Source of the DNA: Marinoscillum pacificum
Lineage (GTDB): Bacteria > Bacteroidota > Bacteroidia > Cytophagales > Cyclobacteriaceae
Assembly (NCBI RefSeq): GCF_024714495.1
Contig: NZ_JAMZMJ010000009.1
Location: 62,001 to 126,000 of the forward strand
Direction: 5' to 3'
DNA: 64,000 nt
Every line of letters begins with the position of its first letter. The first letter of the stretch is position 1. The notes below the pieces were generated by a model. The model made no database searches and was not told where the DNA came from. It saw only the letters and a list, made by a program, of their open reading frames with translations. Shown here piece by piece: positions 9,938-17,320 of this stretch. Made by a program: the position numbers and the translations under genes.

Positions 9938-11344
9938 TTATTCAACTACCAAAAACTCTATATCAACAAACCACTCTTCCCCATCTTTATAAGGAGTAGG
10001 TGTTGGTACGATATTAATTCCTTCATTTTTAAGATTAAGTGTAGCCGCTATAAGTTTACTCCTGTTGAACAAGTCACCTGGCTTTACATCAATAAATGAT
10101 TGCACATAATTCAAATCCGACAACCCTTGATCATCAACAGTGCAAACGCGGTTGATATAAACATCTTGTCCCTCATAAACATCAAAAGTCAGAGCCACCA
10201 TACCATTATCCAATTCTTTTATTTCTGGTTCTACTCTGAAGAATAAATACCCCAGATCCATGTATAATGATGCAACATCCTTATCATCTAGTGATACAAA
10301 AGCTAAACGTTTATTTAAATCTTCCTCCATATAAACATCACCAGGCTTCAAACCAAGTTGTGCAGTCAATTCAGCATCCGAGTAAAGCTCATTACCTTCC
10401 CACTTAATGCTATTAATAACAGGCCCTGAAAGACTTACCTCTTCTGCATGCATGGTTTCAACTTCTTGAGTACAGGAGGAGAATATAAGACCTGCTAATA
10501 GTAAAACAGGCAACGCAAGAGCATATCTCCATAAGCTCTGTGCATTTGATTTTTGTGTGTTAATCATCATGATACGTTTTTTTAAATTTTGTTTAGAAAA
10601 TGAATGGGTAATGCCTTGACTGGACGAACTACAAGCAAGAGAAAGCATCAACCGAGAGTATTGATCCACATCATGGCTTATAGCCATAGTCGCTTCATCA
10701 GCTTGATACTCATGAATCAGCCGTAAGTCTGACTTGATAAAATAAATGAATGGATTGAACCAACAAACAGCTGAAACCAGCTCCATTAGGATCAGGTCAT
10801 AAGTATGTTTATGATCCACATGTGCCTTTTCATGAGATAAGATTAATGCTTGTGATTGTTCATCAATGGCCTGAAGACATGAAACAAAGATCCATTTCCC
10901 AAAGGAGAAAAAACGGGTACTTTGGGGAATGTAAATCAATTGAACTCCTGACTTCATATCCACTTCATTGTTACGAACCAATCTCAACACCTTACTAATT
11001 GAAAGAATTATTCGAATAATGAAATAGAGAACACCAATAAGATAGATCGAAAATATCACCACTGGAATTAATGAGAACCAATTGTAGGAAGACTCAACGC
11101 TCTCCGATGAGTGAGAGACCTCATTAGTTGATTCCGACCAATCCCAAGTGTATAATTCAGCCGGAGCAGCGGCATTATAAATCGGAATCTCCAATACAGG
11201 AATGAGGAATGAAACCAAGACAGTGGCAACCAGATACACTCTACTCCATTGAAAAGATGACAGCTTTTGAAAGAATAATCGATATACCAACCAAAACAAG
11301 AAATGGCAACATGCCACCTCTAACAAATAGATAAACCAACTCAT
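9938..11344 (-). CDS. M56 (BlaR1-type) membrane metalloprotease with C-terminal BamA-like POTRA repeats
   Basis: Residues 1-290 form a BlaR1/MecR1-like protease: membrane segments near 5-25, 36-52 and 92-116, the zinc motif HEKAH at 171-175, the HEYQADEA segment at 211-218, and a fourth membrane segment near 272-290. In place of the TonB-C or penicillin-sensor domain usual for the family, residues 308-468 read as two POTRA repeats. The first contains WEGNELYSDAELTAQLGLKPGD and YMDLGYLFFRVEP; the second contains VYINRV, VKPGDLFNRSKLIAA and the ending VDIEFLVVE. These closely resemble the POTRA repeats of Bacteroidota BamA. The blaI gene upstream overlaps by 4 bp. Family knowledge says the protease inactivates BlaI on a signal. 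The POTRA domain as signal receiver is inference. Confidence 0.88.
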   Translation of the reverse strand: MSWFIYLLEVACCHFLFWLVYRLFFQKLSSFQWSRVYLVATVLVSFLIPVLEIPIYNAAAPAELYTWDWSESTNEVSHSSESVESSYNWFSLIPVVIFSIYLIGVLYFIIRIILSISKVLRLVRNNEVDMKSGVQLIYIPQSTRFFSFGKWIFVSCLQAIDEQSQALILSHEKAHVDHKHTYDLILMELVSAVCWFNPFIYFIKSDLRLIHEYQADEATMAISHDVDQYSRLMLSLACSSSSQGITHSFSKQNLKKRIMMINTQKSNAQSLWRYALALPVLLLAGLIFSSCTQEVETMHAEEVSLSGPVINSIKWEGNELYSDAELTAQLGLKPGDVYMEEDLNKRLAFVSLDDKDVASLYMDLGYLFFRVEPEIKELDNGMVALTFDVYEGQDVYINRVCTVDDQGLSDLNYVQSFIDVKPGDLFNRSKLIAATLNLKNEGINIVPTPTPYKDGEEWFVDIEFLVVE

Positions 11345-11712
11345 GATTGATCCTTTTTGTATTGATCAATCAATTCTGAAATCTCTTTGATATCCTTTTC
11401 AGAGAGTTCATCCTCCTCTGCCATAAAGGAAACGACATTGTTCAAAGACCCACCAAAGAAATTCTTCACAAGGTCTTTAACTACATGTTTTTTGTACTTG
11501 ATGCGAGAGACTATAGGAAAGTATTCATGAGTCTTCCCATAAGCCTTATGACTCACATAACCTTTGGTTTCAAGAATTCTAATGATAGATGAGATGGTCG
11601 TGTAAGGTGGCTTTGGCTCCGGATACATCTCCAAAACATCATTCACAAAGCCTTTTTCAATCTCCCAAAGAATCTCCAGAGTGGTTAATTCTCGTTGTGT
11701 AAGTTCTTTCAT
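11341..11712 (-). CDS. BlaI/MecI/CopY family transcriptional repressor
   Basis: A 123-aa winged-helix repressor with the family N-terminus (LTQRELTTLEILWEIEKGFVNDVLEMYP, then PPYTTISSIIRILETKGYVSH for the recognition helix) and a helical dimerisation tail. Such repressors are cleaved or released by the M56 protease encoded next door. The two genes overlap (ATGA-type junction at 11341-11344). A cluster of dyads sits directly upstream and is the probable operator, so the pair is likely autorepressed. Confidence 0.94.
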   Translation of the reverse strand: MKELTQRELTTLEILWEIEKGFVNDVLEMYPEPKPPYTTISSIIRILETKGYVSHKAYGKTHEYFPIVSRIKYKKHVVKDLVKNFFGGSLNNVVSFMAEEDELSEKDIKEISELIDQYKKDQS

Positions 11713-11723
11713 AGATTAAAGAT

Positions 11724-11782
11724 ATAACGCAACATTGAGTTAATCAACTTAACTATGCGTTATTTAACGTTAACTTACGTTA
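11724..11782. promoter_or_regulatory. dyad cluster, probable BlaI operator and promoter
   Basis: Three symmetric elements lie upstream of the repressor gene: ATAACGCA (11724-11731) with TGCGTTAT (11756-11763), TAACGT (11765-11770) with ACGTTA (11777-11782), and an imperfect GTTAAT/CTTAAC pair between them. On the minus strand a TATCTTTA box lies close to the ATG, with a TTG about 20 bp further upstream. This fits a -33/-7 promoter overlapped by repressor sites. Confidence 0.5.
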
Positions 11783-11804: not shown

Positions 11805-11832
11805 AATGCCCTCAGAAACATCAGAGGGCATT
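11805..11832 (-). terminator. terminator of the metal efflux operon
   Basis: AATGCCCTC (11805-11813) and GAGGGCATT (11824-11832) pair. Read on the minus strand, the stem is followed by ATTTTTATGG. It lies just after the last gene of the efflux operon (ending at 11883) and before the blaI promoter. Confidence 0.8.
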
Positions 11833-13036: not shown

Positions 13037-16000
13037 TTATTCCGTGTAGTAGTTAAGTTCAATAAGTGTTTTGAGGTACAGGCTTTGAGTTGCTAATGCA
13101 CTTCTTAGTCCTTCGTAGCTCTGATTGACCACATTGATAAAATCGAATGCATCTAACTCTCCAGCATCTAAAGCGACCTGCGCTTGTTGTACCAATACAT
13201 CTAGCTGATCTGCGGAACTCTCTTGTGCCAATACAAAATCGTCCTGAATCAAACTTAGAGCTGCCAGGCATTTACTAAGCGATTGCTGAAGCTGTCGCAT
13301 CTGCATATCATTTTGTACTTCCACCTGATCCAAAGCCACTTTTCGCTCCTGCACTCTGGCACTTTGTGGACGGAACCACAATGGAACTGATGCTCCAAAC
13401 TGGACGCCTTGAAAACCAGAAACACCCTCGAGCTGCTGATTAAAGTAACCGACACTTAATCCCGGGAAATAGCCAAGTTTTTCTGTTTTCAATTGCTTAG
13501 ATGCCAGAGTTTCGTGCTGATCCAACAGCTGATAGAAAACCGCGCTCAAAACCGTATCGCCACTCGTAAGAAGTGCTGGCAATTCTTGAGGCAATGAAAG
13601 TTCTTGCCTTCCCATTGTTGTCATCTCTACTAAGTATTGACTTGTGAGCTCAAAATCAACTTTAGCCTGAGCTACCTGATTCCGCAAATTGCTGTATTGC
13701 TGACTTAGGTAAGAAACCTCTAGCAAACTTTTATCCCCAGCTTCCACAGCCTTTTCACTACTTCCTACCACTTCTTTGTAAAGCTCAAGCTGTGATTGAA
13801 GTGATTGAAAAGCAAGTCCAGCCTTTACCCAATCGACATACGCCGAAGAAACTTCCATTTTCACCCAGCGCTTGTTCATTTCCTGATTCATCTCAGCGAG
13901 CTCAACAGCCATGCTTGCCGTTTTGCCACTAGAAATAGCCTTTGGAATATTACCCAGAGACTGAGTAATGGAAATATTGTAATCATTCACTCCAGCATTG
14001 ATCTCGCCATACTGGACATTCACACCAAGATTACCCGGATCATATGATTGTTTTTTCAAAGCTGATTGCTTCTGTACTTCCAGGTCAGCCATTTTCACGG
14101 CACCATAGTTGGATAGTGCTTTTTGCTGAACTTCTTCCAGACTCGTTGGAGTTTGAGCATTCGTTGTAAAACCTAGTCCACATAACAATACAATGATCAT
14201 TGCAGCTTTATTCATTCCGAACTTCTTATGATACACCATATTGTAAACCACTGGCAGCACAATCAAAGTCAGTAAGGTAGAAGTAACTAATCCGCCAATA
14301 ACCACAGTTGCCAAAGGACGTTGCACTTCAGCTCCTGCAGTTGTAGAAATCGCCATTGGCAGGAATCCAAGTGCCGCAACTGATGCAGTCATTACAACCG
14401 GACGCATACGTACCATTCCTCCTTTTACAACCAGCTCTTTCAAAGTAATTTCTCCTTCTTCCTGAAGCTGATGATAGTATTGAATCAATACAATTCCATT
14501 GAGTACCGAGACACCAAACAAAGCAATGAATCCAACTCCCGCGGAAATACTAAATGGCATGTCTCGAATCCAAAGCGCCAAAACCCCTCCAATTGCTGAG
14601 AATGGAACTGCTAGGAAAATTATTAATGAATCGATGATGTTGTGGAATGTGAAATACAACAAAACCACAATGGACAACAACGCCAATGGAACCGCTAGCT
14701 GAAGTCTTGCCGTTGCTTTCTCAAGATTTTCAAACTGACCTCCAAACTCCATCACATATCCAGCAGGCATCTTTAGTTCAGCACCAAGTTTTTGTTTCAA
14801 CTCTTCTACCAAACTAGCTACGTCTCTATTTCTCACATTAACTCCTACACTTATTCGTCTTTTTGCCTGATCTCTCGATATCTGAAGTGGACTTTGAGTT
14901 GAAATAACCGAAGCTACCTGTGACATAGGAATCAACTTTCCATGCATGGTCTCTACCCAAAGACCTCCAAGATTGAAATCATTTCTGAAATTTTCATTGT
15001 ATCGAACCACGAGATCAAACTGGCGTTCATTCTCAAAAATCTGACCAACGGCATAACCCGCATAGGCTGCTTCCACCGTTCTGTTAAGATCTGCAACATT
15101 CACTCCATATTGCGCCATCATTTGACGATCATAGGTGATCTTGTATTGGGGAAGTCCTTCTGTTTGATCCACTTTTACATCCCCCACACCGTTCACATCT
15201 TGAATGATTTGACCGGTTTTATTAGCCAAGCCGGCCAATGTTTCCAGATTCTCACCAAATATCTGAATGGCGACATCTGTCTTTGCCCCGGTAACCAATT
15301 CATTGAACCGTAACTGAATCGGCTGAGTGAAGTCAAAGGAAGCACCAACAATGATTGATAACTTCTCTTTCATCAATGCCACCAGATCTTCACGATTGTC
15401 AGCCATAATCCACTCATCTTTTTCTTTCATGATGAGCATGATATCGGCATTCTCAACCGACATTGGATCTGTAGGAACCTCTGCCGTACCAATTTTGGAC
15501 ACAACATGCTCAACCTCTGGGAAGTTCTCTTTCAGTATCTTCTCCGCTGCAGTGGTGGTCTTTATACTTTGAGTCAATGAACTACCTGACTGGATGGTCA
15601 TCTGCATGGCCATGTCTCCTTCTTCCAGATTAGGAATGAACTCTCCTCCCATTCTTGAAAAAAGAATTACAGATGCCAATAAGGCTGCAACAGCAAAGGC
15701 AATGACCAAACCAGGCACTCTCATTGCAAAGTTGAGAGTTGGTCTATACATATTTCGAAGGCCATCAACTATTTTATCGGAGAACGTTTTGTGTTCCTTG
15801 ATATCCTTTTTCAGGAAAATAGAAGCCATCACCGGCACATAAGTCAATGAAAGGATCATTGCTCCCAGAATCGCAAAACTCACAGTGAACGCCATTGGGC
15901 GGAACATCTTTCCTTCGGTACCTACTAAAGTCATGATTGGCACAAAAACCACTAGAATAATCAACACCCCAAATGCTGCCGAGTTATAGATTTTACCTGA

Positions 16001-17314
16001 AGTCTTGATTACGGCATCATCCATTTCATCTTGAGTGAGCTTCCTACCTACATAGTTGGTATACAAAACATGCAGCACTGATTCTACAATAATCACCGCT
16101 CCATCCACTACAATTCCGAAATCCAGCGCTCCCAAAGACATCAAGTTGGCTGAAACACCGAAATAGCGCATTAGCATAAACGCAAACAGCATAGAAAGTG
16201 GGATCACAGAAGCTACGATCAATCCTCCACGGATATTACCCAGAAGCAACACCAACACGAAGATTACGATGATTCCTCCTTCAATAAGATTTTTCTCTAC
16301 GGTACTAATTGCTCGACTAATCAAAGAAGATCGATCAAGATATGGTTCTATTTTCACTCCTTGAGGAAGAGATGACTGAATTTCAGCCACACGGTCCTGC
16401 ACATTGGCTATAGCCGCCGAAGAATTACTCTCTTTCAACATGAGTGTGATACCTCCTACCACTTCACCTTTTCCATCCATGGTCATGGCTCCATAGCGTT
16501 TTGGGCTTCCCAATTTCACTACAGCAATATCACGAACGTATACAGGCAACTCACCATTCTGGGTAACCAAAACCTGCTCTATATCCTCTTTTGTTTGAAG
16601 TCTTCCAAATGTTCGGATATAGAATGAATTGGTTCCTTTTTCCTGATAGCTACCTCCGGAGTTTTCATTATTCACTTCCAGCGCACTAATCAACTGTGAC
16701 ATGGAAACACCTAATGAAAACATTCTTTCTGAGTTGATAGAAACTTCGTATTGTTTGACCAACCCTCCGAAGCTACTCACTTCAATAATTCCGGGGATAC
16801 CTGCTAATTGACGCTTCACGATCCAATCCTGAATGGTTCGAAGATCCATGATATTGTATAGATCTTCATATTCTGGATCAACTGTCAGCGTATACTGGTA
16901 AATCTCTCCCAATCCGGTGGTAATTGGCATCAACTCCGGTTTTCCAAGTCCATCAGGGATACTAACTACCGACAGCTGTTCACGCACATACTGTCGTGAA
17001 TCCAATGTCGGCATATCCTCTTCAAAAACTACGGTAATAACGGACAAGCCATATCTGGAAATCGAACGAATCTCCTCTACACCGGGTAGGTTAGAAATAC
17101 TCGACTCTATGGGAAAGGTAATAAGCTGCTCTACCTCTTCAGCAGCCAGTGTAGGTGATACGGTCACCACCTGCACTTGATTGTTGGTAATATCTGGAAC
17201 GGCATCCAATGGTATTCCACGCATGGAATAAACTCCACCGATGACAATCAGTAGTACCAACAAAAAAACAACGAGCTTATTCTCAACGGAATAAGCGATG
17301 ATTTTTTGAAACAT
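13037..17314 (-). CDS. CusA/CzcA heavy-metal RND pump fused to an outer-membrane factor domain
   Basis: Residues 1-1033 are an HME-type RND transporter with the family motif LDFGIVVDGAVIIVESV in TM4, carrying the charged residues used for proton coupling. Porter loops and twelve membrane segments are present. At about residue 1034 a second signal-like segment (NKAAMIIVLLCGLGFTTNAQ) begins, followed by about 370 residues of a TolC/CzcC-like domain with long helices (EEVQQKALSNYGAVKMADL and others). Such RND-OMF fusions are known in Bacteroidota. The start ATG at 17314 is preferred over the TTG one codon upstream. Adaptor gene downstream, His-containing small protein upstream. Likely substrates are divalent or monovalent metal ions. 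Confidence 0.93.
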   Translation of the reverse strand: MFQKIIAYSVENKLVVFLLVLLIVIGGVYSMRGIPLDAVPDITNNQVQVVTVSPTLAAEEVEQLITFPIESSISNLPGVEEIRSISRYGLSVITVVFEEDMPTLDSRQYVREQLSVVSIPDGLGKPELMPITTGLGEIYQYTLTVDPEYEDLYNIMDLRTIQDWIVKRQLAGIPGIIEVSSFGGLVKQYEVSINSERMFSLGVSMSQLISALEVNNENSGGSYQEKGTNSFYIRTFGRLQTKEDIEQVLVTQNGELPVYVRDIAVVKLGSPKRYGAMTMDGKGEVVGGITLMLKESNSSAAIANVQDRVAEIQSSLPQGVKIEPYLDRSSLISRAISTVEKNLIEGGIIVIFVLVLLLGNIRGGLIVASVIPLSMLFAFMLMRYFGVSANLMSLGALDFGIVVDGAVIIVESVLHVLYTNYVGRKLTQDEMDDAVIKTSGKIYNSAAFGVLIILVVFVPIMTLVGTEGKMFRPMAFTVSFAILGAMILSLTYVPVMASIFLKKDIKEHKTFSDKIVDGLRNMYRPTLNFAMRVPGLVIAFAVAALLASVILFSRMGGEFIPNLEEGDMAMQMTIQSGSSLTQSIKTTTAAEKILKENFPEVEHVVSKIGTAEVPTDPMSVENADIMLIMKEKDEWIMADNREDLVALMKEKLSIIVGASFDFTQPIQLRFNELVTGAKTDVAIQIFGENLETLAGLANKTGQIIQDVNGVGDVKVDQTEGLPQYKITYDRQMMAQYGVNVADLNRTVEAAYAGYAVGQIFENERQFDLVVRYNENFRNDFNLGGLWVETMHGKLIPMSQVASVISTQSPLQISRDQAKRRISVGVNVRNRDVASLVEELKQKLGAELKMPAGYVMEFGGQFENLEKATARLQLAVPLALLSIVVLLYFTFHNIIDSLIIFLAVPFSAIGGVLALWIRDMPFSISAGVGFIALFGVSVLNGIVLIQYYHQLQEEGEITLKELVVKGGMVRMRPVVMTASVAALGFLPMAISTTAGAEVQRPLATVVIGGLVTSTLLTLIVLPVVYNMVYHKKFGMNKAAMIIVLLCGLGFTTNAQTPTSLEEVQQKALSNYGAVKMADLEVQKQSALKKQSYDPGNLGVNVQYGEINAGVNDYNISITQSLGNIPKAISSGKTASMAVELAEMNQEMNKRWVKMEVSSAYVDWVKAGLAFQSLQSQLELYKEVVGSSEKAVEAGDKSLLEVSYLSQQYSNLRNQVAQAKVDFELTSQYLVEMTTMGRQELSLPQELPALLTSGDTVLSAVFYQLLDQHETLASKQLKTEKLGYFPGLSVGYFNQQLEGVSGFQGVQFGASVPLWFRPQSARVQERKVALDQVEVQNDMQMRQLQQSLSKCLAALSLIQDDFVLAQESSADQLDVLVQQAQVALDAGELDAFDFINVVNQSYEGLRSALATQSLYLKTLIELNYYTE

Positions 17315-17320
17315 CAATTT

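Follow-up and report, generated by a model that had tools for sequence, protein, structure and literature searches.

What a BlaR1-type protease carrying two BamA-like POTRA repeats might sense, and what it might control, is the question raised by this locus of Marinoscillum pacificum. To our knowledge, it is unclear by what means Bacteroidota detect faults in the assembly of outer-membrane proteins (OMPs). The window (the whole 64,000-nucleotide stretch analysed) contains a receptor gene with the following features:

9938..11344, minus strand: M56-POTRA receptor gene, 468 aa (open reading frame and two-domain homologues)
10562..11317, minus strand: Peptidase_M56 (BlaR1-type) domain, residues 10–261 (Pfam, VIA)
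10820..10834, minus strand: HEKAH zinc motif, residues 171–175 (H171, E172, and H175 invariant in 17 members)
10697..10714, minus strand: HEYQAD, with the third zinc ligand E212 and with D216 (the EXXXD of BlaR1; invariant in 17 members)
10472..10540, minus strand: fourth transmembrane helix, residues 269–291 (AlphaFold2 model)
10169..10423, minus strand: first POTRA, of the BamA POTRA4 type, residues 308–392 (Pfam; fusion HMM, 93.3 bits)
9941..10165, minus strand: second POTRA, of the BamA POTRA5 type, residues 394–468 (fusion HMM, 75.2 bits; fold matches)

The protein matches Peptidase_M56 with an E value of 4.1e-16 and 59.5 bits (curated Pfam cut-off 31), has a weak M48 similarity (E 8e-4), and over residues 3–255 resembles BlaR1 in VIA-align, with 8exs at Z 17.0 and a BlaR1 range of Z 15.5–17.0. 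All 17 own-family homologues share the zinc ligands H171, H175, and E212 along with E172 and D216, and the protease active site is, as read from the sequence, intact. The AlphaFold2 model has membrane helices at residues 2–25, 31–47, the start of 89–125, and 269–291, with the protease between TM3 and TM4 and the C-terminal sensor after TM4. Both POTRA folds have a pLDDT of ~85, the TM2–TM3 loop (53–87) and the linker (292–305) are ill-defined, and values for the whole protein (pLDDT 75.9, pTM 0.51) make the placement of the POTRAs relative to the protease unreliable. The first-pass annotation had described a HEKAH M56 protease with four membrane segments, and the Pfam match, the invariant zinc site, and the modelled helices bear this out. 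A lipobox after TM4 (LIFSSC), which would have allowed release as a lipoprotein, was considered and ruled out, as its cysteine is not conserved (SFTEKS or similar in most homologues).

The two C-terminal repeats could be traced to particular domains of BamA. Pfam POTRA (PF07244) matches two stretches, the better at residues 308–392 (E 5.5e-18, 65.9 bits, cut-off 21.3). Profile HMMs built from the fusions and run on the host BamA pick out POTRA4 (residues 342–422, 93.3 bits) and POTRA5 (424–499, 75.2 bits); the remaining POTRAs of the host BamA score <1 bit, and those of the four BamAs inspected at most 14 bits. Residues 307–468 match BamA POTRA4–5 in Foldseek (3og5, TMt 0.81), and the top BamA structures for residues 304–468 in VIA-align are 5efr (Z 16.5), 9n2d (Z 16.1), and 3og5 (Z 13.8), the solved structures matched including BamA of F. 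johnsoniae and B. thetaiotaomicron. POTRA4 and POTRA5 directly precede the barrel in BamA, so the fusion has kept the last two BamA POTRAs in their native order. A tree built from 23 fusion pairs together with 73 BamA pairs of Bacteroidota places all fusions on one side of a branch with an SH-aLRT support of 99.8; this was a quick tree with some long branches, and it is consistent with the POTRA pair having been captured from BamA a single time. The fusion POTRAs derive specifically from BamA POTRA4 and POTRA5. What had been read from the sequence as two BamA-like repeats is thus narrowed to these two domains, with Pfam, HMM, AlphaFold/Foldseek, and tree in agreement. The family status and structure of the protein we regard as virtually certain.

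The two POTRAs have fared differently at the residue level. The POTRA4 signature (W-GN...LG..GD...SLYMDxGYLFF...EG) is kept in the fusions at nearly BamA levels, including W315, G317, N318, L326, G335, D356, S359, M362, D363, G365, Y366, F369, E391, and G392. Lost from the fusion POTRA5 are, among others, T438, V442, R445, P451, R462, R465, and F473 (host-BamA numbering), residues that are 96%–100% conserved across 73 BamAs. R445 falls in an RRExR helix, near a BamD contact; in E. coli, BamA R366 contacts BamD Y184, and R366E impairs growth (PMC11592675). By alignment, the R445 helix would correspond to the E. coli R366 segment, with the exact residue match presumptive, and the loss of POTRA5 invariants argues against BamA-like docking on BamD. 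BamAs have an identity to one another of 0.56 for POTRA4 and 0.62 for POTRA5; between fusions and BamAs the values are 0.40 and 0.35. Because the signature is kept, the invariants are lost, and identities fall in this way, the sensor looks like a module that stayed BamA-like in POTRA4 and was freed from BAM-core constraints in POTRA5.

Both POTRAs are under purifying selection, with dN/dS of ~0.05–0.19 in six pairs (dS near saturation in two), equal to or stronger than that on the M56 part in most pairs. Recurrence in 34 sampled genomes and these dN/dS values indicate that the fusion is not a chance product. When the window and L009, both members of the genus, are compared, third-codon-position identity drops sharply at about residue 281 (9938–10500 region): the M56 part has values of 0.65–0.93 and blaI one of 0.79, compared to 0.45–0.64 for the POTRA part and 0.54 for cusB next to it. 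This suggests that blaI and the M56 part may have recombined or been gene-converted separately from the sensor.

A search for other M56-POTRA fusions and their gene neighbours found a two-domain match in at least 34 sampled genomes, all from one order, the Cytophagales, with blaI as the sole conserved neighbour. One match is interrupted (G912); it and a second interrupted copy (G673) have one TGA each. Since the best 4–5 candidates were scored per genome, all genome counts are lower bounds. The full protein occurs in at least 17 of 295 genomes of the own family (2 of 6 in the genus) and in at least 18 of the 390 genomes of the order sample, which span five families but come mostly from one genus of family f2; in the 395 genomes of the phylum sample, the candidates scored yielded just the copies of the host genome and of a single f2 genome, plus an interrupted one. 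Carriers include Hymenobacter citatus, H. setariae, Larkinella knui, Cesiribacter andamanensis, a Cyclobacterium sp., and a Catalimonadaceae strain. Patchy spread and two broken copies indicate that this is not an essential stress system. Two members (L227:1111-3033 and L236:1501-3342) have ~110–150 extra residues after the second POTRA, an unnamed further domain.

Upstream of the receptor lie a repressor gene and its predicted control region:

11341..11712, minus strand: blaI, Penicillinase_R repressor, 123 aa (Pfam E 2.7e-28), sharing its last 4 bp with the start of the receptor gene
11717..11724, minus strand: probable -7 element of the promoter, TATCTTTA, directly downstream of dyad 3
11726..11781, minus strand: predicted operator array, in which a 16-bp dyad AAC-N10-GTT occurs three times at a period of exactly 20 bp (upstream scan, shuffles)

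BlaI scores 99 bits with Penicillinase_R (cut-off 22.6), and blaI adjoins the fusion in 17/17 own-family loci and in further loci with enough flank, although five own-family loci have the order m56-blaI rather than blaI-m56. The three imperfect dyads (11726-11741, 11746-11761, and 11766-11781) lie upstream of the operon, and the last reaches a promoter-like TAnnTTTG box; the array overlaps the predicted promoter. We take TATCTTTA to be a -7 element of the Bacteroidota TAnnTTTG type, and an exact TACATTTG is found at the corresponding place in L057 and L058. The triple-dyad array is present in 16/17 own-family loci (a variant in L053) and in most loci outside the family, whichever gene order they have. 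No array turned up in 100 rounds of dinucleotide shuffling of the upstream regions, compared to 13/17 real regions, a count by an automatic test that overlooks arrays extending past a misassigned start codon. BlaI thus very likely regulates its own operon through the predicted array. Lineages differ in their half-sites (AACTGA, AACKCA). In the host genome, a paralogous blaI-M56 operon near L003 has a triple array of its own (G000:C2:16265-16320) with AACTTA half-sites and the same 20-bp period, which hints that operators and half-site code may be paralogue-specific. The coupling to BlaI proposed in the first-pass annotation is upheld by this adjacency and by the conserved predicted array, and we hold it with high confidence.

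Beyond blaI, the neighbourhood offers little. A terminator-like hairpin at ~11805-11832 parts the upstream RND efflux operon from blaI-m56, which is therefore a separate unit. The family loci have no conserved bam, OMP, chaperone, or protease gene nearby, and the only shared neighbours that might hint at function are those of close relatives. In the window, a 1426-aa ORF at 13037-17317 (minus strand) reads in translation as a single polypeptide in which a heavy-metal RND pump precedes a TolC-like outer-membrane efflux part. A sister genome has a TPR-histidine kinase gene (L046:9428-11341) between blaI and the efflux operon, which is absent from this place in the window. Three Cesiribacter loci (L054–L056) have as divergent neighbours an HTH-DUF4870 gene and a gene for a beta-lactamase-family serine hydrolase (Pfam in L054), and L048, L050, and L051 have a neighbouring peroxidase gene in common.

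Operators were also sought genome-wide (17 genomes scanned for the triple array with at most 2 mismatches, 10 for single dyads). In the host genome, the triple array occurs nowhere beyond the fusion operon and the paralogous blaI-M56 operon in a scan that would miss weak sites, and single-dyad matches are at background (10, compared to 14 for a reversed control). The search gave no support for a wider regulon; most of the candidate sites inspected fell within coding regions, and they lacked conservation between G000 and G003. A broad stress regulon for M56-POTRA/BlaI is unsupported. The earlier idea of an envelope-stress switch therefore stands in part: the M56 and POTRA domains and the BlaI coupling hold, while no stress regulon was found and, in the host genome, strong operators are seen only at blaI-M56 operons.

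The locus is best compared to known systems part by part. Staphylococcus BlaR1/BlaI and MecR1/MecI likewise combine an M56 gluzincin (HEXXH and EXXXD) that has four membrane helices and a C-terminal extracytoplasmic sensor with an adjacent BlaI-family repressor gene. Unlike BlaR1 and MecR1, the sensor is a POTRA4–5 pair, with no penicillin-binding (class D-like) domain and no transpeptidase profile match, and the protein falls far under the NCBIfam BlaR1 cut-off (24.9 vs 400 bits). It resembles Bacteroidota BamA (Omp85) POTRA4–POTRA5 in identity (35%–41%), order, fold, and POTRA4 signature, but differs in having an inner-membrane anchor, in lacking POTRA1–3 and (in sequence and model) the C-terminal 16-strand beta-barrel, and in the lost POTRA5 invariants. 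Other Bacteroidota M56-BlaI pairs have a like M56 domain, a linked blaI (host-genome paralogues and L040/L041), and, before the paralogous operon near L003, the 20-bp triple array; they differ in the C-terminal reader domain and the operator half-sites. With the DegS/RseP sigma-E system, only the idea is shared that OMP assembly is read from the inner membrane and answered by proteolysis, an analogy, since M56-POTRA has no PDZ domain, M50 or S1 protease, or anti-sigma factor.

M56 tails had been expected to be TonB-C, penicillin-binding, or carboxypeptidase-like domains. Among M56 proteins sampled in the phylum they are TonB_C (25/45), M23 (7/45), CarboxypepD_reg (7/45), and amidase (1/45), which confirms the TonB_C and carboxypeptidase-like types and adds M23 and amidase to the list. 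The amidase tail is an N-acetylmuramoyl-L-alanine amidase, and at L040:1489-2892 an M56 protein encoded beside a BlaI gene carries a peptidase-like domain of the M23 (LytM) type. With the POTRA pair, a receptor frame that was already known gains a new reader domain; the fusion is not a new kind of system. No description of an M56/BlaR1 protein with POTRA domains was found in the open-access full-text literature, a survey of Omp85 proteins mentions neither M56 nor BlaR (PMC4104836), and NCBIfam has no model covering the combination (partial BamA match, 45.6 bits vs a cut-off of 297).

Our main reading, to which we give a rough probability of 0.42 as a whole, is a stand-alone, autoregulated receptor-repressor pair whose BamA POTRA4–5-like sensor reads a BAM-related ligand. 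In BlaR1, for which the EXXXD motif was defined, beta-lactams are sensed via the C-terminal domain and BlaI is cleaved by a protease that faces the cytosol (PMC9834060). Topology, signalling, and BlaI cleavage in M56-POTRA are drawn by analogy from BlaR1, and this homology supports the periplasmic side proposed earlier for the POTRAs. Bound to the three tandem dyads that cover its promoter, BlaI would keep blaI-m56POTRA low, and the M56 protein would span the inner membrane, the zinc protease on the cytoplasmic side and the copy of BamA POTRA4–POTRA5 in the periplasm. There the sensor would meet a soluble ligand that BamA POTRA4–5 would bind but cannot. A signal through TM4, as in BlaR1, would then lead the protease to cleave BlaI and derepress the operon. 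The ligand, and any targets switched on besides the own operon, are guesses; for the ligand, the most likely candidates are an OMP, unfolded or bound by a chaperone, and a POTRA4–5 binder free in the periplasm, such as BamP. In F. johnsoniae, the N-terminal domain of BamP, a protein of restricted distribution, binds BamA POTRA4 and POTRA5 (PMC12611786). A POTRA4–5 ligand therefore exists in Bacteroidota, and BamP-like proteins are candidates besides unfolded OMPs. With a short tether (~15–40 residues) at the inner membrane, reaching OM-bound BAM would be awkward. That M56-POTRA is an outer-membrane assembly sensor we hold as a tentative view, and that the captured mimic competes for what BamA itself binds in the periplasm (unfolded OMPs, or lateral-gate regulators like BamP) we consider rather unlikely.

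The POTRA pair could instead be a BamA-derived binding or oligomerisation module in a BlaR1-like circuit that reads something other than OMP folding, such as peptidoglycan state, a toxin or antibiotic, or a lipoprotein. The loss of BamA-specific POTRA5 residues, the very different C-terminal domains of other M56 proteins (TonB_C, M23, CarboxypepD_reg, amidase), and the patchy spread with varying neighbours (the RND efflux operon here, the beta-lactamase-family gene near the Cesiribacter copies) all fit such an input, but the near-BamA level of the POTRA4 signature and the retained POTRA4–POTRA5 order do not, and we see it as possible though doubtful.

The protein might also be an inner-membrane quality-control protease that catches clients by the POTRA pair, with BlaI merely providing feedback on its amount, as the own operon being the only predicted strong operator target of its type and the weak M48 similarity would allow. 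This is improbable given that blaI linkage is universal and that, with the BlaR1 active site cytosolic (PMC9834060) and the POTRAs periplasmic, clients would need another step. Functionless decay of an accessory domain, for which the interrupted copies in G673 and G912 might speak, is largely refuted by the dN/dS of 0.05–0.19 in both POTRAs across six pairs and by a single ancient origin retained across five families of one order, and it is given very little credence.

With a sensor that reads a BAM-related ligand, as in our main reading, a BamA POTRA4–5 copy tied to a BlaI-cleaving protease offers a genetic handle on the sensing of OMP assembly in Bacteroidota, with the blaI promoter as a ready reporter. 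The BlaR1 family would broaden from antibiotic receptors to a general inner-membrane frame with exchangeable periplasmic readers (TonB_C, M23, amidase, POTRA). If the POTRA4–5 mimic does compete for BamA ligands, it would be a one-step proteolytic sensor of BAM occupancy, the first one known from Bacteroidota.
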